From NCBI RefSeq assembly GCF_900099915.1, contig NZ_FNDB01000002.1, positions 287,910-351,909 on the forward strand: a DNA stretch of 64,000 nucleotides, written 5' to 3'. The notes beneath the pieces are model-generated. The model was not told the origin of the DNA. It saw only the letters and a program-made list of their open reading frames with translations, and made no database searches. This DNA is from Flavobacterium omnivorum. GTDB lineage: Bacteria > Bacteroidota > Bacteroidia > Flavobacteriales > Flavobacteriaceae. Below, piece by piece: positions 3,968-26,559 of the stretch. A program made the translations under genes and the position numbers. Within the stretch, counting starts at the first letter, position 1; each line of letters opens with the position of its first letter.

Positions 3968-4340
3968 GCATCACACTTTCTGAAAAACCAATATTTTTTA
4001 TGAAGAGTGACGTTAAGGAGTAACGTTTTATTATTTAGAGACTCTTTTCTTAATTAAGACTGCTATGACAATACTTTTCTACCGTGTTTGCAGTAACAGT
4101 GAAAACAATTGCACTATTACGTATATTTGAAATCAATCTTTTATAAGAACGCAAAAAAACAAATTGACTAGCTGTCTAAAATTGTTGTGTAATCTCTTTT
4201 TTTAAACGTATTAAAGTGCCTATAGTTTCATATAAATAGTAAATCTAAAGGTTCAGTTCTTATTTTCATACCGTCAGGCTATCACTTTATAATAAATGCC
4301 CACTTATTTGATTTTTTTACCACCCTGTATCACGAGTAAA

Positions 4341-8300: not shown

Positions 8301-11300
8301 ATGGTTACCGTATAGGTACCTGCTGTTAATCCGGTTGCCGTTGGCGTAGTCTGAATAGGAATTGTATTCCAAGAATAAGTCAAAGCTCCACTACCTCCAA
8401 TTGCAGTTACGGTCGCGCTTCCCGTACTGTCTCCAAAACAAAGAACATTCGTTTGAGCACTCATCGAAGCAGTTATACCTAAAGGTTGGGAAATAATAAC
8501 TCCTACAATTGTTTTTAAGCTTCCGTTGCTATCAGTAACTTTTATATCATAAGTACCTGCGACTAATCCAGCAAAAGTATAATCCAAAGCTGAATTGTTA
8601 AGACTGCTCTGAACAATGCCTCCGCCTTGTAAAATTAATTCATATTTGTAAGGTCCAATGGATTGCTGGGTAATAACCACTTTTATGATACCGGTTGAAT
8701 AGCCATTACAAAAAATGTTAGCGTGTGCCGCTGTATCTTCCTGAATGACTAAGGACTGCGGTTCGGTTAAAGTAAAAGATAAAATTACAGGATCGCATAG
8801 TCCATCATTTATGGTAAGCGTATAATCTCCTGCAATAAGATTAGCAATATCTTGGCTTGAAGCCAAAAAACTATTGGGACCTGACCACGAATAGGTATAA
8901 GATCCCGAGCCACCCGATACCGATACAGCAATAGAACCGTCATTTGCACCAACAGTACTTAGGTTAAAACCGTTATAATTCGACAAAACACTGGAGGTTA
9001 TAATCGCTGGATTTACGGTTATACTATACGTATTAGGTTGACCTTGGCAAACCACTCCATCATTTAGGGTTGCTGTTGCTGTATAAATAACTGTAAGTGG
9101 ATCTGTGGTAGTATTGGTTAGCGTTTGAATAGGAATTACCGCCGTTGTTCCTGATGTTGTTGCTCCAGTAATTCCCGGAGGGATTGAAGCAGTCCAATTA
9201 AAAGTAATATTGCTTGTAGTTGGGCTTGAAAAATTTATTGCGGCAGCATCATTTCCCGAACATATTTTCTGATTCAAACCAGAGAACACCACTTTGGGAG
9301 ATGGATTAACAGTTATAACCACAGGAAAAGCTGTTCCTGAACAAGTTCCTGATCTTGGAGTTACCGTATAAGTAGCGATAGCCGTTTGATTGGTACCATT
9401 TACTAGCGTTTGGTTAATAGAAGATTGAGGCGTATTTTGTGCATTTGCTCCCGAAATTGCCCCAGATGGACTTATTACTGCCGCACTCCAAGTATAAACG
9501 GTTCCGGATGGAACTATATTTCCTGAGCCATCACTTGGTGTTAATGAAAATGCAGTAGTACTACAAATGGTTTGTGCCAATGAAGATGTTATGCTTGGTT
9601 TTGGTTTCACTATTATGGTATACTTATATGATGCTCCTAAACAAGCCGTTACTCCTGCTACCGTTGCCGTGGCATTATATTCAATAGTAATCGCTGCATT
9701 TGTGGTGTTGGTCAAGGTTTGTGTTGGAATACTGCTTGTTCCTGATGTTTGTATTGTTTCAGTTATTCCTGCAGGCTGGGTTGTTGTCCAGCTAAAAGTG
9801 ACTCCAGCAGTACTACTATTTAACGATACTGCTGCAGCATTTTCTCCTGAACAAATCGTTTGTGGTGCAGGAGTAAAAGTTATCACTGGTGAGGGGTTGA
9901 CGGTAATAGAAAAACTTTTAGATGCACCAGGACAACCATTAATTGATGGTGTTACAGTTATGGTAGCAATTTTTGGAGCTGAAGTGGCATTACTTCCTGT
10001 AAAAGAAGGAATAGTTCCTGATCCGCTAGCGGGTAAACCTATAGATGAATTTGAATTGGTCCAACTGTATATTGTGCTAGGAATATTTCCCGTAAAAGGA
10101 ATATCCACTGTTGACAAACCATTGCACACTTCCTGATTAAGGGGCTGTTCGACAGTTGGGGTCGGATTAACAGTTATGGTAAAATTTTTGGGTGTTCCAA
10201 TACAGCCATTCGCTTTTGGCGTGACAGTTACAGTGGCAATTAGGGGTATTAAACCACTATTCGTTACGGTAAAAGAGGCTATATTTCCAATACCAGCAGA
10301 TGACAAACCTATGGATGGTGTATCGTTTGTCCATTCAAAAGTGGTACCTACAATACTTCCTGTAAATGCAATAGTACTGCTTATATCTCCATTGCATTTG
10401 ACTAGATTTAATATTGTAGTAACTGTTGGCGTTGTATTAACCGTCACTACAACTGGTTTTATCAAAGTACAACCATTAGTGTTTACTGCCTTTATATAAT
10501 AAGTTCCACTTACTGCTACTGCATTTGGATTACTTAATGCTATTGTAGCCAAACTATTTGTCCAATACGTCAATGTTAATCCAGGATCTGAACCTATCGT
10601 AATATTTGAACTAGTAATATCAACTGTTGTTCGACTACAAACTGCACTTGGATTTGTGATTAGTAAATTTGGCAAAGCATTTGCGGTTACTGTCCCAGAA
10701 GCACTTGAACTAACACATCCTGTTGTGGTATTGGTAATAATCACACTATAAGTTCCCGCGATTGTTGTTGGAAAACTAGCTACATTTCCGGGGTTAGTAA
10801 ATCCTGAAGGAACATTCCAAACATACGAATAAGTGCCTGAGATTCCAGAAGTAGCTATTACAGTCGCTGATAATCCTGAACAAACTACTGGACTGTTTAC
10901 GGTAACTGTTGGTAAGGCTTTTATAGTTACCACTATTCTAGCACGGTTTCCCTCACAACCCGTAACTGTATTGGTTTGACTTACATAATAATTTTCAGTA
11001 CCTACAACTGCTGTACTAGGTGTTGGCGTAGCTGCTAGTGGAGTTCCTGCTGTTGCAACCGTGTACCAATTTAAAGTGTTATTGGATAAAGCTATAGCTG
11101 TCAAAACATTTGCTGTAGCATTTTGACAATAGGAAACTGGACTTACCACGGGCAAAGGAGGCAAAGGATTAACCGTCACTACAACTGGTTTTATCAAAGT
11201 ACAACCATTAGTATTTAATGCCTTGATATAGTAAGTTCCACTTACTGCTACTCCATTTGGATTACTTAATGCTATTGTAGCCAAACTATTTGTCCAATAC

Positions 11301-14300
11301 GTCAATGTTAATGCAGGATCTGAACCTGCTGTAATATTTGAACTAGTAATATCAACTGTAGTTGGACTACAAACTGCACTTGGATTTGTGATTACTAAAT
11401 TTGGCAAAGCATTTTCGGTTACTGTTCCAGAAGCACTTGAACTAACACATCCTGTCGTGGTGTTGGTAATAATTACACTATAAGTTCCCGCGATTGTAGT
11501 TGGAAAACTAGCTACATTTCCGGGGTTAGTAAATCCTGAAGGAACATTCCAAACATACGAATAAGTGCCTGAGATTCCAGAAGTGGCTATTACAATTGCT
11601 GATAATCCTGAACAAACTACTGGACTATTTACGGTAACTGTTGGTAGAGCATTAACTGTTATGGTTGCCGTCTTTTGACATCCATTATAATTGGTATAGG
11701 TAATGGTAGCACTTCCAGCAGCTATTCCATTCACAACTCCAGTAGCACTCACTGTTGCAATTGCAGTATTAGAGGAAACCCAAGGATTTGCGGTGGCTGG
11801 AGTTGCACTTCCTGTTAGAGTAGTTGACAAACCGACGCAAACCTTTAAGGTTCCTGTTATAATGGGAGTGGGATTGACAAGGACAATTAAGGTAAATGAG
11901 TTACCCGAACAAAGTCCAATTTTTGGCGTTATGGTGTATATTGCTGTTTGAGCTGCTATAGTATTATTTATCAATGTCCCACTTATGGAAGTCTGACCGG
12001 TTCCCAAAACTCCACCTGAAATACCACCTGTTACAATTGGAGTGTTCCAAGAATAAGTTGTTCCCACCGGAATAGCGTTTCCTAAAGTTGCGTTTGAAGG
12101 AGTGACAGAAAAAGTAGTTCCACTACAAACAGCAATTATTTCGTTTTGTACAATTGGTGCAACTTGCACTGCAAAAGTATTACTTTCAACTGTTGTTGTT
12201 CCACATTCATTAGTAACCGCCAATGAAACCCTATAGTTCCCGGGCAATGCATAAGAGACTGCAGGTGGAACAGCCGTCGTTGCTGTTGCCGGAGTTCCTC
12301 CAATAAAAGTCCATAAATAAGTTGTTCCTGCAGCATTAGGAGAGCAAATATTAATATTTGCTATTGGATTAAGAGTTGCATTCTGACAAAAATTAGATAT
12401 TGTATTTATAGTAAGTGATGGTGGTTGCGTGATAGTTACTTTTTGAACAGAGGAAGTCACTGATCCACAAGAACTTCCTGAAATAGTTACTTTTATGGAA
12501 TAAGTTCCTGGCGTTACAAAATTAAAAGAGGGACTTGCTGATGTTGCACTTCCCGTTGCATAACTCCAAACAGCTGGTGCAGTACCACAAAATCCACTTG
12601 TATATTGAACATCCCAAGCATAAGTTAAAACACTGCATGTTTTCGATAAATCAGTAGTGTTTTTTGTTGCTACAGCCAATGGCGAACACCCTTCAGTAGC
12701 ATTTATAGTAAACTGAGGAGTTAAAGGGGGTTCGATGCAAATTGTGCTTTTAAAAACCGAAGGATTACCGCAATATCCATAGGTAGTCAAAGAAACTACA
12801 TAAGTACCAGGCGAAGTATAACTGTGATTAATATTTGGAATCCCAGTAGATGTAATACTTGAAACAGGACTTCCATCTCCAAAATTCCATTCATAAAGAG
12901 TACTTTGTATACAACTTTGATTCAATGATGGTGTTGAATTATTTATAAATACAATATTTGAATTAACACAACCATTAATTGGAATTGTAAATTTAGAAAC
13001 TGGAGGTCTTAAAATGCTTATTGGTGAGATCGTAGATTTTGTTTTACCACAAGAATTTTCCATAACTAAAGTCGCTGTTATACTAGCATTAGGACAGCTT
13101 GTAGAATCATATATATGCGGTACTGGATAATTAGCAGATAAGGCTGGATTACTTGAATTATAGTAAACCGATGCATTTAATTCAGTTTGGGTTAATATAA
13201 GAGATGGCGTAGTATCTCCATAATCAAGTGTATAGATTGTAGTAGGTGAATTTTTACCCCAGTTGGCTATCACAAATTCTAAATTAGGTGTTGGAGCACA
13301 TAAGTTTTCTGTACTACCAGGACTACTCAAACTTCCAGATGGATTAGACTCGTTTTTTACAGTATACGTTTTACTACTTAAACAACCATTTGATCCTATG
13401 GCGGTTACTACCATTTGAAAAGCACCTAATTGTGTATAAGAATGATTTGCAGGAAAACTAACATTTGATGTTGAGTTACCATCTCCCCAATTTATTGAAT
13501 AGGAACTGATACAAGAAACTGATGATGACAAATTTCCTATAGAAACTGAATAATTTGGGTTCGATGCAGATGCTGAACCACAATTACTAAATTGATTAGA
13601 CAGATTCAATGGATTGTAAGGAACATTGTCATCTTTAAAATTTACATCTGGCTGCTGTTTTATTTTTATTATCTTGGTTATTGTATTTGAACAGCCATTG
13701 GCGTTTGTAATCGTTAACGACACATTAAATGTGGCTATTCCGCAACCAAATGAAGTGTAAATATGTGATGGGTTTGTTAGAGCAGAGGTAGTTCCATCCC
13801 CAAAATTCCAAGTGTAAATAGTTCCGGAGCTTGTAGTACTAAGTTGAACTGCAGTTCCAGAACATTGGTTATCAGTAAAAGTAAAATCAACGACTGGAGG
13901 TGCATTAACGGTGAATGTAACATTTCCGTTTTGCGAGATTTCTTCGATTGGCATCGATGCATCTCGAACACTTATTAACGCGTACACAAAACTTCCTACA
14001 GTAGCTGTTGGCAAGTTGATTGTTGCTGCATTGCCTGAGGTAGTGGTTACAGTAGGTTGCTGCACTCCATTAATACTATAGGTAAAAGTATAAGGTGCCG
14101 TTCCTCCCGCTCCAGTAAAAGTGATTACTGACGCGGGTCCGTCTTTACAAACAGCAGTGGCACTGGCAGTTATGGTTGCCGTGGGCAGTGCTAAATTAGT
14201 GTCTCCCTTATTTAGGAATTTTTTCTCCTTAATTAAAAAGCTGCTAGTGACTTTAGCGCTTAATTGATGAACTGAAGATAGTAAAACAAAGAAAAATAGA

Positions 14301-14320
14301 ATCCTATAAAGGTGTTTCAT
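5351..14320 (-). CDS. Giant SprB-like adhesin with PKD and SprB repeats and gliding-type C-terminal domain
   Basis: This 2989-residue protein is probably a T9SS-exported surface adhesin. After a signal peptide (residues about 1-22) come PKD-type domains (WNFGDG at about 170, WGDG, WNFGDG) through the first 700 residues. Next are Ig-like/Big-like modules (about 750-1770), including a near-identical duplicated block (about 892-1050 and 1136-1294). About 13 SprB-type repeats of 70-85 residues follow (about 1770-2800), each with a CFGD/S.G core, GG..PY.YSW, L.AG.Y.VTVTD.N.C and an ITEP end. A last PKD domain (WDFGD) precedes the roughly 85-residue gliding-motility-associated C-terminal domain (TPNNDGIND, VYDTWGSLIY, GWDGK, GNYYF). 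That C-terminal class needs a PorP/SprF partner, and such a gene follows 5 bases downstream. Whether it promotes gliding, attachment or both cannot be told from sequence. Confidence 0.9.
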   Translation of the reverse strand: MKHLYRILFFFVLLSSVHQLSAKVTSSFLIKEKKFLNKGDTNLALPTATITASATAVCKDGPASVITFTGAGGTAPYTFTYSINGVQQPTVTTTSGNAATINLPTATVGSFVYALISVRDASMPIEEISQNGNVTFTVNAPPVVDFTFTDNQCSGTAVQLSTTSSGTIYTWNFGDGTTSALTNPSHIYTSFGCGIATFNVSLTITNANGCSNTITKIIKIKQQPDVNFKDDNVPYNPLNLSNQFSNCGSASASNPNYSVSIGNLSSSVSCISSYSINWGDGNSTSNVSFPANHSYTQLGAFQMVVTAIGSNGCLSSKTYTVKNESNPSGSLSSPGSTENLCAPTPNLEFVIANWGKNSPTTIYTLDYGDTTPSLILTQTELNASVYYNSSNPALSANYPVPHIYDSTSCPNASITATLVMENSCGKTKSTISPISILRPPVSKFTIPINGCVNSNIVFINNSTPSLNQSCIQSTLYEWNFGDGSPVSSITSTGIPNINHSYTSPGTYVVSLTTYGYCGNPSVFKSTICIEPPLTPQFTINATEGCSPLAVATKNTTDLSKTCSVLTYAWDVQYTSGFCGTAPAVWSYATGSATSASPSFNFVTPGTYSIKVTISGSSCGSVTSSVQKVTITQPPSLTINTISNFCQNATLNPIANINICSPNAAGTTYLWTFIGGTPATATTAVPPAVSYALPGNYRVSLAVTNECGTTTVESNTFAVQVAPIVQNEIIAVCSGTTFSVTPSNATLGNAIPVGTTYSWNTPIVTGGISGGVLGTGQTSISGTLINNTIAAQTAIYTITPKIGLCSGNSFTLIVLVNPTPIITGTLKVCVGLSTTLTGSATPATANPWVSSNTAIATVSATGVVNGIAAGSATITYTNYNGCQKTATITVNALPTVTVNSPVVCSGLSAIVIATSGISGTYSYVWNVPSGFTNPGNVASFPTTIAGTYSVIITNTTTGCVSSSASGTVTENALPNLVITNPSAVCSPTTVDITSSNITAGSDPALTLTYWTNSLATIALSNPNGVAVSGTYYIKALNTNGCTLIKPVVVTVNPLPPLPVVSPVSYCQNATANVLTAIALSNNTLNWYTVATAGTPLAATPTPSTAVVGTENYYVSQTNTVTGCEGNRARIVVTIKALPTVTVNSPVVCSGLSATVIATSGISGTYSYVWNVPSGFTNPGNVASFPTTIAGTYSVIITNTTTGCVSSSASGTVTANALPNLLITNPSAVCSRTTVDITSSNITIGSDPGLTLTYWTNSLATIALSNPNAVAVSGTYYIKAVNTNGCTLIKPVVVTVNTTPTVTTILNLVKCNGDISSTIAFTGSIVGTTFEWTNDTPSIGLSSAGIGNIASFTVTNSGLIPLIATVTVTPKANGCIGTPKNFTITVNPTPTVEQPLNQEVCNGLSTVDIPFTGNIPSTIYSWTNSNSSIGLPASGSGTIPSFTGSNATSAPKIATITVTPSINGCPGASKSFSITVNPSPVITFTPAPQTICSGENAAAVSLNSSTAGVTFSWTTTQPAGITETIQTSGTSSIPTQTLTNTTNAAITIEYNATATVAGVTACLGASYKYTIIVKPKPSITSSLAQTICSTTAFSLTPSDGSGNIVPSGTVYTWSAAVISPSGAISGANAQNTPQSSINQTLVNGTNQTAIATYTVTPRSGTCSGTAFPVVITVNPSPKVVFSGLNQKICSGNDAAAINFSSPTTSNITFNWTASIPPGITGATTSGTTAVIPIQTLTNTTTDPLTVIYTATATLNDGVVCQGQPNTYSITVNPAIITSSVLSNYNGFNLSTVGANDGSIAVSVSGGSGSYTYSWSGPNSFLASSQDIANLIAGDYTLTINDGLCDPVILSFTLTEPQSLVIQEDTAAHANIFCNGYSTGIIKVVITQQSIGPYKYELILQGGGIVQSSLNNSALDYTFAGLVAGTYDIKVTDSNGSLKTIVGVIISQPLGITASMSAQTNVLCFGDSTGSATVTAIGGSGALTYSWNTIPIQTTPTATGLTAGTYTVTITDTNSCATEKQVVITEPDRLVTSISPQTNILCFGNSTGTATIAVSGGEAPYAFSWSTLINNTGATASGLSADTYTVTVTDANNCTKVQQVIITQPTAVLESSISSFNNVSCFGGSDGMATVAVTNGSAPYTYSWNTVPVQTGATATGLTKGNYSVKVIDINGCETTSVVAIEQPAAISTSISAQINVACSGSDSGSATIVPNGGTAPYTFSWNTTPMQTAATGINLAKGTYLVTVVDANNCSTIQQVVITEPNGLVTALASQVNVDCFGKSTGSVAVSVSGGTAPLTYSWDTPTANTTLSASGLVAGSYHLTVSDANGCQKIQEVKITEPADLAITTNLEKDVTCFGDSDGAIKITVSGGTSVYSYSWTKDGTAFANTEDLSNLSSGIYQITVSDANNCGPKTATFTITEPPVLEVTFGSKTDIKCFGAETGAINVNVIGGTASTSGYNFAWTGPNRFASASQNLIAVFAGTYNLIVTDNSGCTDRLTVILTQPSLVIVSATTNPIVCYGDNDASIRLTVSGGVAPYTVLWSNLAVGLVQDNLSAGDYVATITDANNCIKTITVNIPEAPLFKMEPTVTQISCFGARDGSVKLNLVGGIPIVKLVWSDNSLAGTTRNNLGPGIYTATIIDGTPCQITKTFVLIEPQALVLAANTTNALNCDDANSGAINLLVSGGTPPFSYVWSNGTVTEDLNAIPAGNYLVTVTDARKCSASGSYSVIRPAAIAVKVETATDFNCETKVVKQSFVAKTSGGVPPYQFEWSSGSVSGPNNEIMSTSQNGLVVLNAIDSRNCSTTYTFDVAIPQLGAPSFTTASIGYSTYGIYSIEDPIQFTNTASGDYTAITWDFGDATFSTEENPTHIYKKEGTYIVSQTVTYPFGCVYVRQITLEVEKGYRLIPPTGFTPNNDGINDYFAPVLLGLNEIHFDVYDTWGSLIYSESGENIRGWDGKINNKEGENGNYYFTIIAKTFYGKIIKDKGALVLIN
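10439..10914 (-). repeat. Internal direct repeat in adhesin gene, copy 2
   Basis: These 476 bases are nearly identical to 11171-11646, offset by 732 bases (244 codons), and preserve the frame. They encode two Ig-like modules, including CSGLSA and WNVPSGFTNPGNVASF. Differences are scattered single bases, which implies a recent in-frame duplication or gene conversion. Confidence 0.92.
11171..11646 (-). repeat. Internal direct repeat in adhesin gene, copy 1
   Basis: This is the N-terminal-side copy of the 476-base block also found at 10439-10914. The 256 bases between the copies encode a different Ig-like module (around SYCQNATANVLTAIA). Two close copies in direct orientation could recombine to lose or gain 244 codons. 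Confidence 0.92.
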
Positions 14321-15591: not shown

Positions 15592-16266
15592 CTATTTAGT
15601 CGTAATTACAATTACTCCACTAGATCCCTGAGCACCATAAATTGATGCTGCAGCATCTTTTAAAACGCTGACATTTTTGACATTATTTGGAAAAAGATAA
15701 TCAATACTCGATACAATAACACCATCAACAACAAATAACGGCTCTGAAACATTTCTAATCGAAGTCAAACCTCGGATTGTTATTTTGTTGTCCCTTGAAA
15801 CCGTAACTCCTGCTAAACGGCCTCGTAAAAGATCATATATAGTAACAAAACTTCTAGTGCTTTTATCGTTCTGAACATCCATCGTTTGAGCTGTTTTTAC
15901 TCTATATCCCTGGTCTTCTTCTGAATATCCAATGGTAATTTTACCTCCTTTTTTTATTCTATTTTTTATTTCTTTTTCAGATTCTAAAAAAATGAAACTC
16001 ATACTATTTTCATTACTAAATTTAGAAGAAAGCAAACCATATTTATCCGAATAAATATTAATCACAGCCACTTTTTCAGGGAGCAGCACTTCAAATTCTC
16101 CGTTTTTATTTGTATTTACATTGGTATAAATAGAATCCACAAATACTTTAGCATTGGGAACTGGTCTATTACTGTGATTCATAACTTTTCCTGTTAACTT
16201 ATTTTGCGAATAACTAAAAACTGCAAATAGTAACATAATAAACACTAACGATTTAGAGATCTTCAT
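15592..16266 (-). CDS. Stand-alone carboxypeptidase-regulatory-like plus TonB plug domain protein
   Basis: The protein has 224 residues. A signal peptide (MKISKSLVFIMLLFAVFSYSQ) is followed by a carboxypeptidase-regulatory-like (CarboxypepD_reg) domain at about 22-95 (LTGKVMNHSNRPVPNAKVFVD). A SusC-type plug domain follows at about 120-224 (LLRGRLAGV, ITIRGLTSI, EPLFVVDGV, VSVLKDAAASIYG, GVIVITTK). It stops exactly where a SusC/RagA receptor would continue into its 22-strand barrel. There is no barrel and no SusD partner. The tidy end at the domain border and the intact frame argue for a stand-alone periplasmic plug protein rather than a fresh truncation. Its function is unknown; it could be exported or interact with TonB or with a barrel. 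Confidence 0.8.
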   Translation of the reverse strand: MKISKSLVFIMLLFAVFSYSQNKLTGKVMNHSNRPVPNAKVFVDSIYTNVNTNKNGEFEVLLPEKVAVINIYSDKYGLLSSKFSNENSMSFIFLESEKEIKNRIKKGGKITIGYSEEDQGYRVKTAQTMDVQNDKSTRSFVTIYDLLRGRLAGVTVSRDNKITIRGLTSIRNVSEPLFVVDGVIVSSIDYLFPNNVKNVSVLKDAAASIYGAQGSSGVIVITTK

Positions 16267-16813
16267 AACGGCTTTTTAAAAATTTTATTAAATGTACGGA
16301 AAAAATATTCTTAAAATATTTTCTGTGGAAAATAGAGGTTTTTATTTAAGTTATTAATTGAAAAAAGAATAATAAAAAAAAATAAAAATTCAAGTGATAT
16401 ACCTTTATAGATTATTCTTAATAATGCTAAGCTATATCAATAGAAAGCAACTAATTCATAATCACTAATCTGAGAATTTATATTTCCAAAGGACACCGTT
16501 TAACTTTAGTTACAGTTATTTTAACTTCTCACAAGTCTATTAACAATAAATTCAAATTAAAGAACAACAACGTGCTATTTGTTAAAATTCTCTTTGATAA
16601 ACAATTTTAAAAAACGAATAAATATCTATTAAAAACATTTTCATTTATCATTCTAAACACTACTTACATCCATTTTAATGACACGTGCTTTATCGGTAAA
16701 CGAACCACTAAATCCGATAAACTACACAAAATCACAACATTTTATCAATAAAAAGTTGTTTCGTAAAAAACAAACAAGTAGTTTTATTGCCTAAATACCT
16801 CACTAGAAAGTTT
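16267..16813. other. Divergent intergenic region
   Basis: There are 547 AT-rich bases between the plug protein (minus) and the first large T9SS protein (plus). The only structure I see is an 8-bp inverted repeat, TTTATCGG / CCGATAAA (16689-16721, 17-base spacer), about 95 bases before the plus-strand start. It could be an operator or be meaningless. No clear TAnnTTTG element was found. Confidence 0.5.
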
Positions 16814-19800
16814 ATGACTCAAAATTACCTTGCAAAAAATACCGATTATTTTAAATATACAACAAATTTCCATCCTCTTTGCTTAAGTACTAACTCAAAA
16901 GTAAAACTGCATAAAACTAGATTTTTTTCTTGGTTTTTTGTCTTATCGATTTTCTTCGTTTTTTTGATGGGAAATAAAGCAATTGCGCAAGTTACAATAA
17001 CAAAACCTAATTTATCCATACCAGTTTGTTCAGGTTTCCCATCTTCATACTATCCTTTAGAAGATATAGAAATCACCGAAACAGCAACAAGTAATTTTTC
17101 TTCAGGCTCTAATATTACTTTAATACTTTCTGCACCAGCTAATTTTGAATTTAAAGCTAATACTGGTTTTGTATCAGCTAGTAGCGGAGCTGACTTCACC
17201 TCAATTTCATCATTGACCGTCTCTTCAAGTGTTATAACTTTAACATACAGTGTTAATTCACCCACAAACAAAACTGACAGATTAACGTTTAGCCAATTAC
17301 AAATAAGAGCAATAAATAATGTTAGTACTGGTAACATTACCCGTAATGGGGGAACAGGAACTATATCAGGTTTAATAACCGGAACAACCTTAACTAATAC
17401 AATAACATCAGTAATTGGAACGCCTCCATCTATATCTAATGCAGGTTCAAACCAAACTTTAACTTCATGTGCAACTACAACAACAGTAGCAGGTAATGTG
17501 CCAACATCCGGAACAGGACTCTGGTCTGTAGTATCTGGAACGGCTACTATAACAACACCATCTTCCCCCACTTCTGGGGTAACTGGATTAACTGTAGGGA
17601 CCACAGCAACTTTACGTTGGACTATAAGTAATGGAGCATGTGAAAGTTTATTTTCTGACGTGACAATTACAACAGTAAGGGGAGCAGGTTGTTTAGTATA
17701 TTGTACACCATCTGTAAGTAGCGGAGTTCAGGCATCCAACTATATAAAAGACGTAAATTTCATAGGTAATATAACAAATTCTAACAACTCTTCAACCTAC
17801 AGCTCATCTCCTTTGGGCTATCAAGATCAAACAAATTTAGGCACAAGAGCTTCACAGGCGCAAGGAGAGGGAGTAAACATTTTCACAAATACAACAGGTG
17901 GAGCCAATTACATGAAAGCATGGGTAGATTGGAACAGCAATGGAATTTTTGACGAGTCAACTGAAATTGTATACCAATGTACTAATGCTTTTATTAATAC
18001 AACATTTGGTTTTAAAATCCCAGAGACGACCATTCCAGGAAATTATAGAATTAGAATCAGAATTAATAAATCAAATTCTACAGCTGATAATACTTTCAGT
18101 GCATGTGGAAATATTGCTAATTATGGAGAAACCGAAGATTATTTATTTACTGTGGTAGCAAATTGTGCTGCGAAAATCACATCCATAGCCAATGGCTTTA
18201 ATTGCGGAACAGGCTCAGTTACATTAGGCGCAGCAGGAACTGCCGATAATACACAATACCGTTGGTATGACTCCCAATCAGGAGGAACATTAGTAGAAAC
18301 TACAATCTCAACCACATGGTCAACGCCTTCTATTAGTGCCTCAAAAACTTTTTATGTAACTGCATTTAATGGGAGTTGTGAATCTTTATTTAGAACCCCA
18401 GTCGTGGCAACTATAAAACCTATACCAACATTAACTTTTGCAAATGCCAATCCAGAAGTATGCGGTGAAAATAGCATCATCGATTTACAAGCATCAGGAA
18501 ATAATGAGCAAGTTTACCTGATTGACGAAAACTTCGAGAGTGGTATGGTTAACTTTACCAGCAACAGTATTGCTTTTCCTACAGGTGAAGAATCAAAAAC
18601 AAAGTGGCAAATTCAATCAAGTACCTATGTCCCTCCCTACCCAACATTTCCTGTATGGTATCCCGCGATTTCATCTGGATTTGGCACGAATAAATTTGCA
18701 ATAACAACCTCAGATGTTGTAGCTGGTGGCACAACTTTCGGAAAAGTAGAAAATGCATTAGAATCAGTAATAGTCAATACTACTGGTTTTTTAAATTTAT
18801 CTCTCAGCTTTAAGATGTATTTTTCAAGTTATAATGATGCAAATAGCGCTTCGGTTGAATATGTTAATGTAGAAGTTTCAACAAATGGAGGAGATTCCTG
18901 GAATCCCACTCCAATAGTCCAATATCTTGGAGATGTAGGAATAGGAACCCAATTTGTAACATCTCCTAATTTTAACGTAAACGCTTTTATAGGTATTACC
19001 TCCCTTAAAATCAGAATTAGGTATAAAGCTGGCTGGTGTGATGGTGTTGCGGTAGATGATATCAAATTATTTGGTGACAAGCCATTATCACCCTCATTCC
19101 AGTGGACAAGTGCTCTTCCTCCCGATGCTTATACTAATGCCGCATGTACTTTGCCTTATACTGCCGGCACACCAGCATCAATTGTTTATATAAAACCAAC
19201 ATTAGCACAACTGGAACAAAGTACCTATTCATTTACTGCAAAAGCAAATTTAGCAAATGGCTGTTCTACAAGTGCAATCATAAACGTAACTAACAAATCT
19301 AAAGTTTGGCAAAACTTAACTATCGACTGGAATAATTCGAGCAACTGGAAACCATCCGGAGTTCCTACAGCAGCGAATTGTGTAATTATACCAAATACAA
19401 CTATCATTCCAGGAAACAACTATAATGCCTATGCAAAAAATTTAACAGTTAAATCAACCGGTAATTTAGAGCTTTCCTCCACAAGCAACCTTACAGTTAC
19501 TGACTTTGTAGATGTAAATACAGATGGGATTTTCAATATTAGAGATAAAGCAAACTTGATTCAAATCAATAATACTCCAAATACCGGAATTGTAAATATT
19601 GAAAGAGTTTCACAGCCAATGTACAATATTGATTATACCTATTGGAATTCACCGCTAACATTAGCTTCTAATTTTACTTTAGGATCATTATCTCCAAATA
19701 GTCCTTTGATGTTTTCTTGGATACCAACAGTTTCTGCAGGAACTGGTGGCAACTGGAAAAATGAAAATAACGCTACAATCATGGACCCTCGAAAAGGGTA

Positions 19801-21070
19801 TATAATAAGAGCACCTACTACCTTCAGCTCATCAATCAAAACGCCTTATACAGCCACATTCAAGGGAACACCTAACAATGGTACCGTAACTGCGCCTATA
19901 ATAAAAGGAACTTTGACAGGAGTCGTTGATGTAGATGCTGAAAATGATGAGTGGAATCTAATTGGTAATCCATACCCATCTGCAATCGACGCCGGAACAT
20001 TCGTAGATTTTAATGCCAATTTGAATGTAATAGATGGAACAATTTATGTTTGGACCCATAATACAGCACCAAGCCAGGCAGAACCTGATCCTTTTTATGG
20101 CGATTATGCCTTAAACTACACCGAAAATGATTACGCTTCCTTTAATAGAACAGGTGGAGTATCAACAAGATCTTCTGCTACTACGGGTGGTTCTCCGCCA
20201 TCAGGATTTATAGCGTCGGGGCAGTCTTTTTTTGTAAGAGCAGCCAACACCATGGCTCCAGGTACTCTAAACGCAACTTTCAATAATAGTATGCGAGTAG
20301 GTGTAGAAGGAAAGAATGGTGATTTCTTCAAAATGAATAAAAACCAAAAAAACGAAGCAATTCCAAAGAATGTTTCAGATAAAGAGAGACACCGTATCTG
20401 GTTGAACTTAACCAATAACTCGGGCGCATTCAGTCAAATACTTGTAGGGTATATTGAAGGCGCCACACAATCTTTGGACAGGAGTTTTGATGGAGAATCA
20501 TTCGGCGGGAATGATGTTGGCTTTTACTCCATTATACCTGAAGCGCAACTAACCATTCAAGGGCGTTCACTACCATTTGATGAAAATGATCAAGTTAAAC
20601 TAGGTTACTATTCTGAAATTTCAGCGAAACTATCCGTAAGAATTGACCATTTTGACGGTCTTTTTGATAATCAAAACATTCTTTTAGAAGATAAGGAATT
20701 AGGAATTATCCATGATTTAAAAGATACACCTTATGTCTTTCAAACAGAAATTGGTGATTTCGATGATCGTTTTATACTTCGCTACACTGACAAAACCCTT
20801 AGCCTACAAGATCCAATTTATGATAACGCTGTCACTGTGTTTTTTACACGTTCAAATAACACATTGAATATTAAAAATAGTGCAAGTGACAACACCGTTC
20901 TTTCCGCTTCTTTATACGACATTCAAGGAAAATTACTATCCAAATGGGATGTGAAGGAAAAAGAACAATCCAATATTAAAATTCCTATCCAAGACAAAGC
21001 TTCGGCGGTGTATATTGTAAAATTGAAAACCGAAAAAGGTACTATCAGCAAGAAAATTATCGTAAAATAA
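16814..21070 (+). CDS. Large T9SS type A secreted protein with GEVED domain
   Basis: The protein has 1418 residues counted from the ATG at 16814; a TTG nine codons earlier is less likely. An unusually long N-terminus precedes the hydrophobic signal segment (FFSWFFVLSIFFVFLMG..AIAQ, about residues 36-62). Beta-sandwich and Ig-like modules follow, then a GEVED-type domain (about 295-450; WVDWNSNGIFDE, YGETEDYLF). An Ig-like module comes next, then a MAM/choice-of-anchor-J-like module (about 575-760; DENFESG, GVAVDDIKLFGD). The C-terminal 450 residues share a module with the next gene (YWNSP, GNPYPSAIDA, DGTIYVW, GQSFFV, RFILRYTDKTL). The T9SS type A sorting domain forms the last 75 residues (ASLYDIQGKLLS, AVYIVKLKTEKGTISKKIIVK). 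It is predicted to be exported and anchored at the surface; no catalytic domain is evident. Confidence 0.88.
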   Translation: MTQNYLAKNTDYFKYTTNFHPLCLSTNSKVKLHKTRFFSWFFVLSIFFVFLMGNKAIAQVTITKPNLSIPVCSGFPSSYYPLEDIEITETATSNFSSGSNITLILSAPANFEFKANTGFVSASSGADFTSISSLTVSSSVITLTYSVNSPTNKTDRLTFSQLQIRAINNVSTGNITRNGGTGTISGLITGTTLTNTITSVIGTPPSISNAGSNQTLTSCATTTTVAGNVPTSGTGLWSVVSGTATITTPSSPTSGVTGLTVGTTATLRWTISNGACESLFSDVTITTVRGAGCLVYCTPSVSSGVQASNYIKDVNFIGNITNSNNSSTYSSSPLGYQDQTNLGTRASQAQGEGVNIFTNTTGGANYMKAWVDWNSNGIFDESTEIVYQCTNAFINTTFGFKIPETTIPGNYRIRIRINKSNSTADNTFSACGNIANYGETEDYLFTVVANCAAKITSIANGFNCGTGSVTLGAAGTADNTQYRWYDSQSGGTLVETTISTTWSTPSISASKTFYVTAFNGSCESLFRTPVVATIKPIPTLTFANANPEVCGENSIIDLQASGNNEQVYLIDENFESGMVNFTSNSIAFPTGEESKTKWQIQSSTYVPPYPTFPVWYPAISSGFGTNKFAITTSDVVAGGTTFGKVENALESVIVNTTGFLNLSLSFKMYFSSYNDANSASVEYVNVEVSTNGGDSWNPTPIVQYLGDVGIGTQFVTSPNFNVNAFIGITSLKIRIRYKAGWCDGVAVDDIKLFGDKPLSPSFQWTSALPPDAYTNAACTLPYTAGTPASIVYIKPTLAQLEQSTYSFTAKANLANGCSTSAIINVTNKSKVWQNLTIDWNNSSNWKPSGVPTAANCVIIPNTTIIPGNNYNAYAKNLTVKSTGNLELSSTSNLTVTDFVDVNTDGIFNIRDKANLIQINNTPNTGIVNIERVSQPMYNIDYTYWNSPLTLASNFTLGSLSPNSPLMFSWIPTVSAGTGGNWKNENNATIMDPRKGYIIRAPTTFSSSIKTPYTATFKGTPNNGTVTAPIIKGTLTGVVDVDAENDEWNLIGNPYPSAIDAGTFVDFNANLNVIDGTIYVWTHNTAPSQAEPDPFYGDYALNYTENDYASFNRTGGVSTRSSATTGGSPPSGFIASGQSFFVRAANTMAPGTLNATFNNSMRVGVEGKNGDFFKMNKNQKNEAIPKNVSDKERHRIWLNLTNNSGAFSQILVGYIEGATQSLDRSFDGESFGGNDVGFYSIIPEAQLTIQGRSLPFDENDQVKLGYYSEISAKLSVRIDHFDGLFDNQNILLEDKELGIIHDLKDTPYVFQTEIGDFDDRFILRYTDKTLSLQDPIYDNAVTVFFTRSNNTLNIKNSASDNTVLSASLYDIQGKLLSKWDVKEKEQSNIKIPIQDKASAVYIVKLKTEKGTISKKIIVK

Positions 21071-21094
21071 TTTTAAATCTATTTTAATTTCATA

Positions 21095-21127
21095 AAGACT
21101 TCTCTTAATTGGGAAGTCTTTTTTTTT
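21095..21127 (+). terminator. Rho-independent terminator
   Basis: AAGACTTC pairs with GAAGTCTT (21113-21120) around a short loop, followed by seven or more T, 25 bases after the stop of the large T9SS gene. The next gene therefore probably has its own promoter. Confidence 0.85.
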
Positions 21128-21438
21128 GTAAAATATAGTTCTCCTTACATAAAATCGAGTGAAGAAATAGGCAATACATCTGAAATAAAACCATCTGGAA
21201 AATTGCACTATTCTTCTCTAACCTTTTACTGAATTAAAAGTAAAGTTTTTGTAATTATAGTTTACAAATAAACTTACATTTTTTTATTTTTTATGTATTT
21301 AGTCGATTTTATTTGCGCTTAATCCGATTATTGTAATATTAATTCTAAATTTAAACTGTACAAAATATTTCTGATACTTCGCTTCGCCCATTTAAAACGA
21401 AAATTAAAACCATAAATTAATTAAACAAGAATTAAATT
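21128..21438. other. Upstream region of the second large T9SS gene
   Basis: There are 311 AT-rich bases between a terminator and the next start. A TATTTG sequence (21310 region) resembles but does not fully match the -7 consensus. No ORF, RNA or repeat was recognised. Confidence 0.5.
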
Positions 21439-24400
21439 ATGAAGAAAACTACTCTTACGAATAAAAAGCTTTTTTTTACAATCAGCCTGCTTTTCATTAT
21501 AATTTATGGTTATTCCCAAACAACACAAACCTACAGTACGTCTGGAACTTTTACAGTTCCTGCAGGTGTAACCAGCTTAACAGTTGAAGCTTGGGGAGGT
21601 GGAGGAAGTGGAGGTACAAGAACATCAAATGGTGTTAGCGGTGGTGGTGGTGGTGGTGCTTATGCTAAAAAAATAATAACTGTAGTACCTGGAGAACAAT
21701 ATACTTATGTGGTAGGCACTGGAAGTACATCAAATGCAGCCGGTGGCGATTCTTCATTTTCTTCACTTGCCCCAACTACTCTTGTAAGAGCAAAAGGTGG
21801 CGGTAGTGTACCAGACAATACAACAACTGGAGCAATTGGAGGCTTAATCTCAGGTTGTATTGGAGATTTAACTTATAGTGGCGGTAGCGGTGCAACTGGT
21901 AGTAATGGAACATACAGCGGAGGTGGTGGTTCATCAGCGGGGACGGCATTTAATGGTAATGCAGCTACAAATCAAACCGGAGCAACAGCTCCTGGTGGAG
22001 GTGGAAATGGTGGTTCAGGCAACAATAACAATAATAATGGTTTACCTGGAACTATTCCCGGAGGTGGTGGAGGTGGTGCATACCGGACATCATCGGGCAA
22101 CAGGACGGGTGGTTCTGGAGCTGATGGTAAAATAGTTGTTACTTATGTGGCGCCTCAAGAAATAAACATTCTTGGAAATACTATTACTATAACTGACGGT
22201 GATATAACTCCAAGTCCCTCAGATTGGACAGATTTTGGATCAATGGAAACCAGTACGGGAACGATCACAAAAAAATACACCATTCAAAATAAGGGAAATG
22301 CTGTCCTATCTATTGGTTCCATAACTATTTCTGGAACAAACGATGCTAATTTTACACTTACCGTTAGCCCAAGTGCTTCAATTGCTGGAGGAGCAAGTTC
22401 TACATTTTCTGTTACTTTTGACCCTGATACTATCGGAATTAAAACTGCTGCAATTTCAATTATAAACAATGACTCCGATGAAAATCCATATAATTTTTCC
22501 ATTAAAGGAACTGGAATCCAAACCTTTTTTGATAGTGATGGTGATGGCGTTTTTGACAACTTTGACATCGATGATGATAATGATGGAATTCTGGATGCTA
22601 CCGAAGAAATAAATTGTAATAATTCTAACGGCCGTAAAGTAGATTATAAGTTTCTAAATGAAACCTTCGGGACAGGCGGCAGAACTCCAGAATTTACTGC
22701 AGCTTATAACGCAACAACAACCTACTGTTACGAAGACGGAATTGTTGGTACTAATACACCAGAATGCCCTTCACAATCAACAAAAATATTGGATGATGGG
22801 GAATACACAGTGGTTTCCAAAATCACCGGAACAGTAGCGAGCGATCCTGAAAATATTCATGGCGATTTAGCTTGGTACAATGGAGAAGATCATACCACAG
22901 GTGATGTCAATGGCAGAATGGCTGTTTTTAATGCCAGTTTTGAACCAGGTGTATTCTATGAAACTACGATTACAGGAATATTGTCTAATCTGCCTATAAC
23001 CTACAGCTTTTGGGCTTTGAACATCATGGCATCTTCTACCTACCCTAATTCAATTCTACCCAATATAACGGTTGAATTTTACGATTTATCAAACAATCTT
23101 CTTAACTCTTTCAACACAGGTGATATTGGCAGATGTTCTGGAAGCACCACTGACAACAGTTGCCCTCAAGGAGTTTGGCAACAATACACAACAAGTGTAA
23201 ACTTAGGTAATGTAAATGCGTTTACCATTCGTTTTAAAAACAATGCTCCTGGTGGTGGCGGTAATGACCTTGCTCTTGATGATATCCTAATCTCACAAAC
23301 CTTGTGCGATTTAGACAACGATGGCGTTGCTGATATGTTTGATTTGGATGCTGATAATGATGGAATCGAAGATATCATTGAAGTTGGCTTAGGAAATTTA
23401 AGCAATGGTAAAGGAAAAATTGATATGGCTTGGGCCGATGCTAACGGTAATGGATTGCACGACAGTGCAGAATCAAGCGCATCATTACCTGCATTGGATT
23501 CAGATGGAGATGGAATTCCAAATTACTTGGATTTAGACAGCGACAATGACAGTCTCTTTGATGTGGATGAATCCAACGCCGGAAACTCTAGTGCAATTGC
23601 TGGATTTATCAATGGTGATGGTGATATCAACGGAAACGGAACCGGAGATGGCTTAGATACGGAAACTTTTAGAAGCAAAGACACTGATGGTAACGGAACT
23701 TCGGAACTTTTTGGTGATGGAATTTTAGACATTTACGATTACGGTACCGGAGTAAATCAATACGGAAATTTAGGACAAGGAAGTACAATTGCTCCTTTTC
23801 TGAATTATCTTTTGGATACCGATGGAGATGGAACTCCGAATTATATTGATGTAAAATCCAACGGAATTACTTTTGATATCGCAAATACGTTGTTAATATA
23901 TGACTACAAAACACTCGATACTAACAACGATGGAATTATCGACGGAACAACTGATACCGACAAAGACGGAATACTGGATGTGTTTGATACCAATAACGCT
24001 GTTTTTGGTTCTCCAAGAGATTTGCGTACCAAATTATTTCTTGATTTCGATGGTCGAAATGATTACGGACAAAGCACTTCTATTCTTGGTGGATTGACCA
24101 ATGCTTCCCTAATGGCATGGATTAATTTGAATCCTGCTTTTTCAACAGAGGGTGTTATTGTGGGTCAGGATAAATTCCAAATTCGTATTACAGCAGACAG
24201 AAAATTGGAAGCAGTCGTTAATGGAACCACAACTGCTTTTGCTACAGCACTAAATGTTTCCCAATGGTATAATGTTGCCACAGTTTATGACGGAAATAAT
24301 TTGAAATTATATCTAAACGGGGCTTTAGTGGCAACCCAAGCAGCGTCCGGAAGTATCGCTGCTGATGCATCATTGCTTACTTTAGGAAAAAATCCAATTA

Positions 24401-26559
24401 CAAACACCAAGTATTTTAAAGGAAAAATAGATGAAGTACGCGTTTTCAATGTTGCGCTGACGGATTCCAATTTACAAAGAATGGTCTATCAGGAAATTGA
24501 GGACTTTGGTTCACAAATCAGAGGAACGGTCATACCTAAAAATATTGCCTCTACTCCTGCTACACTACCTTTTTCAAATTTACTGCGTTATTACAGAATG
24601 GACAACTACAAAGATGACATTATTGATGACTTGACAACACCAACGATTGATGTAACAGGAACGAAAATTTACAATCATAAATATATATATCTTCAACAAG
24701 CACCTTTGCCTTTCGTAACCGAAAGAGCAGGAACTTTTGCTACAGCCGTAAATAGTCCAACTAAAGAAATCCGAGGAAATGACATTATGGAAAACGATTG
24801 GTCAATTGTCAAAGTACAACATGATATTACCGAAACGGCCAACAACATTGATTTAGGGATGCTGGTCGATTCCGGAAAGAAAATCGTAATGGATAACGAT
24901 ACCAAAATACAAAATGACTGGTATCTAAAATTAGACGGTAAAATTGATTTAACAGGAATGTCACAATTAGTCCAAACTTTGGAGAGTGATTTAGACGTGG
25001 CTAGTGCTGGATCTATTGAAAGAGACCAGCAAGGACAATCTAATCTGTACAATTACAACTATTGGAGTTCCCCGGTAAGCCCTATAAATACCTTAGCTAA
25101 CAATACGGACTATACCATAAACGGGGTGTTTAGAGACGGAACAAACCCTGCATCACCTGCAAATATTACGTGGATAAGTGGGTATAACGGAGCACCTACA
25201 AACCCAATTAGTTTGGCGCGCTACTGGCTATATAAATTTGATAATTATGCTAGCGCTTACGCAAATTGGGTGCAAATAAATGAAACAAGTCCGTTGCGAG
25301 CAGGTCAGGGATTTACCTTAAAAGGCGACGGAGCAGTCTCTGGAACTCAAAATTATACCTTTACAGGAAAACCAAATAATGGAACAATACTGACTAATAC
25401 TGTAACTGCCGAACAACTATTGCTAACCGGAAATCCGTATCCATCCGCTATAGATGCGTATGCTTTTATAAATGACAATCTGACGTCAGTAGACCGACCG
25501 CAAGACACGGGTTTAGACGGAACCATTTATTTCTGGGAACATTCCTCTAGTAACAATTCCCATGTTCTCAAAGACTATTTAGGCGGATATGCCATGCTCA
25601 ATTTATCAGGAGGCTTGCCTCCCGTAGTTCCAGACTTGATTAGCGGTGTAGGTTTGAGTACTAAAATTCCAAAGCAACATATTCCTGTTGGGCAAGGATT
25701 TTTTGTGTACGGAAAAACAGGCGGTGGCGGAACTGTAATCTTTAATAATGGGCAACGGGCATTTCAGAGAGAAACGGATGCTACATCCAACACTCTTTTC
25801 AAAAATAAAGCTAAAGCAAAAGAAGAATATTCATGGGATACGAATTCTAATGATCCGATAAAAATAGACACCCTAAAAAGAATTCGCTTGGGTTTCAATT
25901 CGGCATCTAATTTTCACCGCCAAGTATTGCTGGCCTTCATGCAGGAAAAAGCGACTAGCGCAATTGATTATGGGTATGACGGCTATATTCTAGACGATTT
26001 CCCTACTGACATGTATTTTCTTAACGGCGCAGAACAATTGGCCATTCAAGGCGAAGGCTACTTTGATAGCGAGTCCTCCTTCCCTATCGGCGTAAAAACG
26101 GATGTCGAGGGTCCAGTAAAGTTCTTGATTGATGAACTCGAGAATTTTGAGTCTGATCAAGCGATATTTATCTACGATGACCAAACAAAAATATACCACA
26201 ATATTAGGAATGAAGGTTTTGAAATTAATTTGCTCAAAGGCGAATTTCACAACCGGTTTTCACTACGTTTCAAAGACAAAACGCTAGGAACAACTGAACA
26301 AATTAAAAATGAAAATGACCTTACATTCCTCTATTCACAAAATAGAAATGCACTGATAATCCATAATAAATTGCTGGATACAACAGTTCAAGAAGTTACT
26401 TTATTCACTATTTTGGGACAGGCAGTTGCTAATTGGGAAATTGAAAACCAAGGTCAGGAAAACATTGAACTTCCTGTCAAAAAAGTAAGCACTGGCGTTT
26501 ATATTGTAAAACTTAAAACATCCAGAGGAGTTATAAGCAAAAAAATAATCATTAAATAA
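21439..26559 (+). CDS. Large T9SS type A secreted protein with glycine-rich, TSP3 and LamG-like domains
   Basis: The protein has 1706 residues. After a signal peptide (about 1-26, ending YGYSQ) a glycine-rich domain (about 45-235; AWGGGGSGG, SGGGGGGAY) resembles secreted collagen-like or receptor-like glycine-rich regions. A choice-of-anchor-D/ASH-like beta sandwich follows (about 240-360; FTVTFDP-type motif SVTFDPDTIG). Thrombospondin type 3 calcium-binding repeats appear near 364-390, 620-650 and 690-710 (DSDGDGVFDNFDIDDDNDG), and a LamG/concanavalin-like domain at about 865-1030. The C-terminal module shared with the preceding gene (YWSSP, GNPYPSAIDA, DGTIYFWEH, GQGFFV, RFSLRFKDKTL) leads to a T9SS type A sorting domain (LFTILGQAVANW, GVYIVKLKTSRGVISKKIIIK). 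The repertoire suggests a calcium-stabilised, surface-exposed adhesin or glycan-binding protein. No enzyme domain is seen. Confidence 0.88.
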   Translation: MKKTTLTNKKLFFTISLLFIIIYGYSQTTQTYSTSGTFTVPAGVTSLTVEAWGGGGSGGTRTSNGVSGGGGGGAYAKKIITVVPGEQYTYVVGTGSTSNAAGGDSSFSSLAPTTLVRAKGGGSVPDNTTTGAIGGLISGCIGDLTYSGGSGATGSNGTYSGGGGSSAGTAFNGNAATNQTGATAPGGGGNGGSGNNNNNNGLPGTIPGGGGGGAYRTSSGNRTGGSGADGKIVVTYVAPQEINILGNTITITDGDITPSPSDWTDFGSMETSTGTITKKYTIQNKGNAVLSIGSITISGTNDANFTLTVSPSASIAGGASSTFSVTFDPDTIGIKTAAISIINNDSDENPYNFSIKGTGIQTFFDSDGDGVFDNFDIDDDNDGILDATEEINCNNSNGRKVDYKFLNETFGTGGRTPEFTAAYNATTTYCYEDGIVGTNTPECPSQSTKILDDGEYTVVSKITGTVASDPENIHGDLAWYNGEDHTTGDVNGRMAVFNASFEPGVFYETTITGILSNLPITYSFWALNIMASSTYPNSILPNITVEFYDLSNNLLNSFNTGDIGRCSGSTTDNSCPQGVWQQYTTSVNLGNVNAFTIRFKNNAPGGGGNDLALDDILISQTLCDLDNDGVADMFDLDADNDGIEDIIEVGLGNLSNGKGKIDMAWADANGNGLHDSAESSASLPALDSDGDGIPNYLDLDSDNDSLFDVDESNAGNSSAIAGFINGDGDINGNGTGDGLDTETFRSKDTDGNGTSELFGDGILDIYDYGTGVNQYGNLGQGSTIAPFLNYLLDTDGDGTPNYIDVKSNGITFDIANTLLIYDYKTLDTNNDGIIDGTTDTDKDGILDVFDTNNAVFGSPRDLRTKLFLDFDGRNDYGQSTSILGGLTNASLMAWINLNPAFSTEGVIVGQDKFQIRITADRKLEAVVNGTTTAFATALNVSQWYNVATVYDGNNLKLYLNGALVATQAASGSIAADASLLTLGKNPITNTKYFKGKIDEVRVFNVALTDSNLQRMVYQEIEDFGSQIRGTVIPKNIASTPATLPFSNLLRYYRMDNYKDDIIDDLTTPTIDVTGTKIYNHKYIYLQQAPLPFVTERAGTFATAVNSPTKEIRGNDIMENDWSIVKVQHDITETANNIDLGMLVDSGKKIVMDNDTKIQNDWYLKLDGKIDLTGMSQLVQTLESDLDVASAGSIERDQQGQSNLYNYNYWSSPVSPINTLANNTDYTINGVFRDGTNPASPANITWISGYNGAPTNPISLARYWLYKFDNYASAYANWVQINETSPLRAGQGFTLKGDGAVSGTQNYTFTGKPNNGTILTNTVTAEQLLLTGNPYPSAIDAYAFINDNLTSVDRPQDTGLDGTIYFWEHSSSNNSHVLKDYLGGYAMLNLSGGLPPVVPDLISGVGLSTKIPKQHIPVGQGFFVYGKTGGGGTVIFNNGQRAFQRETDATSNTLFKNKAKAKEEYSWDTNSNDPIKIDTLKRIRLGFNSASNFHRQVLLAFMQEKATSAIDYGYDGYILDDFPTDMYFLNGAEQLAIQGEGYFDSESSFPIGVKTDVEGPVKFLIDELENFESDQAIFIYDDQTKIYHNIRNEGFEINLLKGEFHNRFSLRFKDKTLGTTEQIKNENDLTFLYSQNRNALIIHNKLLDTTVQEVTLFTILGQAVANWEIENQGQENIELPVKKVSTGVYIVKLKTSRGVISKKIIIK

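Follow-up and report, generated by a model that had tools for sequence, protein, structure and literature searches.

The stretch of Flavobacterium omnivorum DNA analyzed here (the window, 64,000 nucleotides) lies on contig C26 of a 3.8 Mb genome and encodes, in succession on the + strand, two large T9SS surface proteins. According to the ORF list and its translations, the first of these, P0001, extends from 16814 to 21070 when counted from its first ATG; the frame opens at a TTG at 16787, and P0001 residues (1427 in total) are numbered from that TTG. A signal-peptide-like hydrophobic stretch was recognized by eye at about residues 45-68, and Pfam matches placed a GEVED domain (PF20009) at residues 375-454 (17909-18148, +) and an Ig_7 domain (PF19081) at residues 468-545 (18188-18421, +). 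The second protein, P0002 (1706 residues; 21439-26559, +; from the same list), likewise has an N-terminal hydrophobic stretch, seen by eye in the translation. It matched the glycine-rich domain Gly_rich_2 (PF21722; residues 34-236; 21538-22146, +), the choice-of-anchor D domain of NCBIfam (NF012200; residues 240-348; 22156-22482, +), and the lectin-like Pfam domain Laminin_G_3 (PF13385; residues 871-1011; 24049-24471, +). Both proteins end in a T9SS sorting domain detected by the Pfam and NCBIfam models PF18962 and TIGR04183 (20855-21067, +, in P0001; 26353-26556, +, in P0002). The PF18962 scores of 32.3 and 28.7 bits and the TIGR04183 scores of 36.1 and 34.7 bits, for P0001 and P0002, respectively, exceeded the curated cut-offs of 27 and 23 bits, and the type C model NF033708, run on the whole proteins, gave 19.7 and 18.1 bits, under its curated cut-off of 40 bits. 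Full-length SprA (2807.9 bits) and GldJ (986.1 bits) were found in the host genome. By their sorting domains and the translocon gene in the genome, P0001 and P0002 were classified as predicted type A T9SS cargo. Just upstream on the opposite strand, a gene (5351-14320, -) encodes a protein of 2989 residues that combines 11 SprB repeats and PKD domains with a sorting domain of the CHU_C kind (type B), and between this gene and P0001 is a 224-residue ORF (15592-16266, -) that resembles, by eye, a short TonB-dependent-receptor plug/carboxypeptidase-regulatory protein.

A sequence-only reading of this region had described a C-terminal module common to the two proteins, with nine motifs in a set order and wholly different N-terminal parts. 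Whole-protein BLASTP gave a single strong match, between residues 938-1427 of P0001 and 1193-1706 of P0002 (30% identity, 182 bits, E 5e-50), and all remaining matches were at chance level (E ≥ 0.17). When the sorting domains were removed, the modules themselves (P0001 residues 905-1338, 19499-20800, +; P0002 residues 1165-1616, 24931-26286, +; both from BLASTP and profile matches) still aligned over module residues 33-434 and 28-452 at 28% identity (114 bits, E 3.6e-32), while the best of 500 composition shuffles reached 24.6 bits. Because the match held after this removal, a likeness confined to the sorting domain was ruled out; the module, of which some 400 residues align, is real. A pattern search recovered all nine motifs in the same order in both proteins: YW(N/S)SP (P0001 952, P0002 1208), F.G.PNNGT (1025, 1308), L.GNPYPSAIDA (1058, 1329), DGTIY.W.H (1083, 1360), GQ.FFV (1145, 1418), FNN (1165, 1435), RI.L (1203, 1481), FDGE/YDGY (1234, 1513), and RF.LR..DKTL (1328, 1606). 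The heads were unrelated, as had been claimed, with GEVED and Ig_7 in one protein, Gly_rich_2, choice-of-anchor D, and Laminin_G_3 in the other, and no BLASTP match between them above chance level.

Whole-protein scans of P0001 and P0002 with Pfam-A and NCBIfam placed no model over the module, and seven module copies scanned alone gave nothing convincing (best E values of 0.11 for Pfam and 0.087 for NCBIfam) and matched no carbohydrate-binding or lectin family. With no covering model in either library, identity with an already-defined family was ruled out, and the module, at about 430 residues, is judged from these scans to be new to the family libraries searched. The type A (PF18962/TIGR04183) and type C (NF033708, ChiA) T9SS models cover the terminal 80 residues of the window proteins; the module is a separate unit upstream of them. 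The earlier description of the module as conserved but little described was thus borne out, given also its spread across the class (see below). No description of it was found in the titles and abstract openings of the open-access papers searched; the RemA paper of 2012 (PMC3393505) lies outside that coverage and may contain an earlier mention. The "long CTDs" of Prevotella intermedia were rejected as the same module, being given as only 69-82 residues in the available text of PMC11969387. One scan of viral contigs yielded no module, and a viral origin was not supported.

What had not been foreseen was that the module belongs to a known gliding adhesin. Profiles of 7 and 125 copies, searched against the PDB sequences, matched RemA (8gl6) and RemZ (8gl8 and two further entries) and no other protein; the respective E values were 9e-129 and 3.5e-128 for the 7-copy profile and 2.8e-151 and 2.9e-155 for the 125-copy profile. 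In RemA (Fjoh_0808), the mobile gliding adhesin of Flavobacterium johnsoniae, the module spans residues from about 950 to 1353 (of 1436) and precedes a sorting domain with the same fold; in RemZ (Fjoh_0803), a T9SS substrate trapped on the extended translocon, the module occupies about residues 619-1031 of 1114. RemZ is named a RemA homologue in the accessible text of PMC10994853, where only its sorting domain is described as well resolved. P0001 aligned with RemA from residue 823 to the C-terminal end (355 bits), so the homology also takes in the beta-solenoid-type lead-in of P0001 (residues 838-904; 19298-19498, +), which was placed from the predicted structure and this homology. Unlike RemA, neither P0001 nor P0002 carries a SUEL (rhamnose-binding) lectin domain in the Pfam scan. 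Because the full-length module homologous to RemA 950-1353 is present in P0001 and P0002, they group with RemA and RemZ as module-sharing proteins, and from sequence homology we add them to the RemA-type T9SS surface proteins as new members.

An AlphaFold2 model of P0001 residues 830-1427 built from 125 sequences had a pLDDT of 88.5 and a pTM of 0.81; a model built from 7 sequences (pLDDT 45.1) was set aside. According to the strand list of the accepted model, the predicted lead-in is solenoid-like and ends near model residue 105; next come a mixed-beta domain that contains the GNPYPSAIDA motif (to about residue 340), a beta-sandwich-like domain at about residues 370-505, a low-confidence linker at 510-517, and the sorting domain at 520-598. 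The linker corresponds to P0001 residues 1339-1346, between module and sorting domain (20801-20824, +), and in the model is the probable sortase cleavage region. Foldseek/VIA-align was convincing only for the sorting domain (Z 10.7, rmsd 1.8 over 75 residues against RemA; Z 10.2, rmsd 1.6 A over 72 residues against RemZ), which filled the match list, so that absent module matches mean little; moreover, the matched PDB chains comprise RemA residues 1361-1435 and RemZ residues 1040-1113 only, that is, the sorting domain and no module coordinates.

The position of the module proved nearly invariant. Of the 151 ORFs that matched at the fetched loci, 16 incomplete ones (partial, or extending past the locus boundary) were left out; in all 135 complete flavobacterial copies that remained (one of which, in L101, duplicates a gene also in L018), the module ended 77-93 residues (median, 83) before the stop. 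Tails were 81-102 residues long in 19 of the 23 distant copies (taken from 20 fetched regions) and 248-258 residues long in the other 4, in which an Ig/PKD-like insert was seen by eye between module and sorting domain. All complete copies thus directly precede a T9SS sorting domain, bar 4 of 158 with one such insert, which indicates that direct contact between module and sorting domain is not obligatory. All 23 distant tails matched TIGR04183 at E ≤ 0.01. At E ≤ 1e-3, the tails of complete proteins from L018 to L100 matched NF033708 in 102 of 102 cases (other members with E values down to 3e-20) and the type A model TIGR04183 in 73 of 102. The definitions of types A and C therefore overlap; published work assigns RemA itself to type A. 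None of 174 proteins contained two module copies, L045 having a single copy split into two matches. Mean column conservation was 2.34 bits for the module, with many conserved aromatic residues, versus 2.04 for the lead-in and 1.92 for the sorting domain.

Irregular and tandem copies were also seen. The split match in the first ORF of L045, which includes an overlapping stretch, and a partial copy with an internal TAG (G057:C1:1926166-1926630) are signs of broken or rearranged copies. L119 (G491:C1:890000-909900) encodes four tandem module proteins in which a repeated glycine-rich linker (QSGGG.GSKGGG) separates the module from the sorting domain, and its contig has three further module matches, the nearest at 911 kb.

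We considered the possibility that the module is a passive spacer, only a rigid stalk segment that raises the head above the lipopolysaccharide layer. The predicted run of beta-rich domains with a solenoid-like lead-in, the same placement in all proteins, and the shortest proteins, which at 566-641 residues contain little else, are consistent with this. However, domains of that kind are usually repeated and variable, and the module was repeated in 0 of 174 proteins and is conserved above the level of the sorting domain; in addition, proteins with only base and sorting domain would be headless stalks. From the absence of double copies, a repeated stalk unit, one form of the putative stalk or assembly domain of the sequence-only reading, is unlikely, and a passive spacer seems unlikely as well, if the least so of the alternatives weighed. 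Single copy, fixed place, and conservation fit best a base that makes a specific contact.

Around this fixed unit, both flanks appear to have been exchanged. After 4 of the 102 complete proteins, which lack an N-terminal part of at least 60 residues, were left out, the heads of the remaining 98 matched Ig_7, DUF5122 propeller, Gly_rich_2, fn3, PA14, GEVED, WD40, CUB, GBD_T9SS_assoc, Laminin_G_3, and Ice_binding domains. Of 436 protein pairs with module identities of 50-59%, 243 showed no detectable head similarity, and the nearest relative by module had an unrelated head for 32 of the 98 proteins, a partly related head for 11, and a related head for 55. At L074, the heads of two adjacent genes are unrelated, yet beyond a point about 38 codons into the module the rest of the two genes is 90% identical in DNA. 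The domain shuffling proposed from the window alone is upheld by these three observations as regards N-terminal parts exchanged around the module, and the exchange of the sorting domain as well was an addition to it. P0001 and its orthologue in F. xueshanense (L021) are 64% identical over residues 303-1425 and 73% identical in the module versus 27% in the sorting domain; their DNA match ends at base 4010 of the gene (window position 20796), and the module ends at base 4014. Among the 86 pairs whose modules share at least 60% identity, 20 have sorting domains less than 35% identical. Some of these low-identity pairs may reflect a short sorting domain that diverges faster, an explanation that scarcely accounts for the abrupt boundary between P0001 and its L021 orthologue. 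As read from these alignments, N termini and sorting domains are both exchanged around the module.

The search of Bacteroidota that had been suggested along with the module showed it to be widespread. A pattern scan of named genomes, with patterns from 7 copies, gave at least 592 matches, at least 559 of them related; the best 80 loci, which were used further, were nearly all from Flavobacteriaceae. A 7-row profile was positive in 73 of 296 genomes of the phylum, with strong matches (E < 1e-40) over most of the length in 25, including 17 of 17 in the own genus. As read by eye from the match tables, these positives were nested within SprA carriers (73 of 228 genomes with SprA and 0 of 68 without it). 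Deeper alignments combined 123 nonredundant copies from the fetched loci with the 2 of the window. The resulting 125-row profile was positive in 144 of 247 genomes of the class, covering 87 of 141 genera, and many families other than the nearest two gave near-full-length matches (E 1e-30 to 1e-75). Because full-length copies were found across the class, the impression from the 7-row profile that the full module was confined to two families, with fragments elsewhere, was dropped. Outside the class, 20 of 20 genomes preselected as positive held fragments only (best E per genome, 3e-5 to 6e-16). SprA was found in 239 of the 247 class genomes, and, again as read by eye from the match tables, one of the 8 without it, G344, has the module; G344 is a draft of 130 contigs, and its genus mates have SprA. 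Three contigs filed as Klebsiella, a gammaproteobacterium, and Limnohabitans (L048, L072, and L077) carry typical flavobacterial modules and were probably wrongly binned.

GldJ was over the cut-off in 37 of the 296 genomes, including all 25 with strong 7-row matches. Nevertheless, within the two nearest families a strong module match was absent from 11 of 36 GldJ-positive genomes, and weaker or partial relatives occur in genomes in which GldJ is not over the cut-off. A gliding-specific module was therefore rejected as a requirement in either direction, and the class-wide spread also disfavors a role in gliding only. By its distribution, the module is, as we read it, a class-wide partner of the T9SS and not a speciality of gliders.

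Seven module proteins were found in the F. omnivorum genome: two lie in the window, three are consecutive on C25 (L018), and C14 (L019) and C31 (L020) have one each, that on C14 with an ice-binding-like head by eye. One of the C25 cluster, L018:14853-19019, does carry the SUEL lectin domain, as RemA does, and matches RemA at 604 bits; it is probably the local RemA. The L020 protein (610 residues) is essentially a signal peptide, the module, and the sorting domain, and has no other Pfam-recognized domain. This minimal protein bears on a further possibility, that the module itself is a lectin or other ligand-binding unit to which N-terminal parts add specificities. Where no other Pfam-recognized domain is present, the module must do whatever such minimal proteins do, and its many conserved aromatic residues would suit a binding role. 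Still, the seven scanned copies matched no carbohydrate-binding or lectin family, and a ligand-binding face would be expected to vary among paralogues, whereas the module is the conserved part. We consider a ligand-binding module improbable.

Published work on the T9SS bears on how a base of this kind could act. The type A sorting domains of RemA and RemZ are bound by PorV in the SprA pore, according to the accessible part of PMC10994853, and P. intermedia cargo is described in the available text of PMC11969387 as cut in a flexible linker before the sorting domain, with the new C terminus glycosylated. The place of that cleavage coincides with the low-confidence linker in the P0001 model, which we count in favor of a base. 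A 2023 paper (PMC10202324, in the portion available) stated that it was not known how adhesins of types A and B get to the gliding machinery. In the accessible text of Paillat et al. (2025; PMC12618676), 86% of the cells with signal had mobile foci of a RemA-HaloTag fusion with its own sorting domain, and 55% had immobile ones; the fusion was also released into the medium, and no helical path was found for RemA. SprB-HaloTag carrying the RemA sorting domain was immobile. Since the RemA fusion is mobile and SprB with the RemA sorting domain is not, the sorting domain alone does not give mobility and the determinant lies further upstream; on the reported data it would be in the module or in the lectin head. 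The suggestion that the module is instead an export helper, folding or pausing in SprA passage or aiding PorV loading and so acting before surface arrival, is highly doubtful, for although RemZ, a module protein, was found trapped on the translocon (PMC10994853, as available) and the module closely adjoins the sorting domain, many T9SS cargoes lack it (17 PF18962 places versus 7 module proteins in this genome) and sfGFP with the RemA sorting domain alone is efficiently secreted (available text of PMC12618676).

The best reading, to which we give about an even chance, is that the module forms the base of RemA-type surface proteins, next to the membrane, and makes a specific contact with the surface. 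Counted in its favor were the full-module homology to RemA and RemZ, the fixed place, the single copy, the conservation, the varied heads, the folded domains of the model, the nesting within T9SS genomes, and the mobility of RemA compared with SprB carrying its sorting domain; counted against it were G344 without an SprA match, the immobile foci and release of RemA, its lack of a helical path, the lectin head as an alternative seat of mobility, and the inserts in 4 of 23 distant copies. For such a base, PorV would bind the sorting domain behind the module in the SprA pore, and the sortase would, as the model and the known cargo suggest, cut the flexible linker between the two. The module would then become the new C terminus of the mature protein, close to the membrane, and this protein would be tethered to surface lipopolysaccharide or released. 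In that place the module would present any fused N-terminal head (lectins, propellers, PA14, CUB, ice-binding domains, or Ig repeats) and may make a specific contact with the cell surface that determines the placement and movement of the adhesin; we infer a docking or surface-mobility role from these considerations. A bolder version makes the module the universal surface-docking socket of Bacteroidota T9SS adhesins, which would engage one outer-membrane or lipopolysaccharide-linked partner, have its heads and sorting domains swapped by recombination at its edges, and link RemA and other gliding members to the moving machinery of the surface; this version we think rather unlikely.

Since RemA also has it, the module is probably a standard base for different adhesive heads in many Bacteroidota. 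Proteins so far recognized only by a T9SS sorting domain would become one architecture, with a variable head, a fixed base, and an exchangeable tag, and a single conserved module of about 430 residues, present in 87 of 141 sampled genera, would offer a precise target for deletion.
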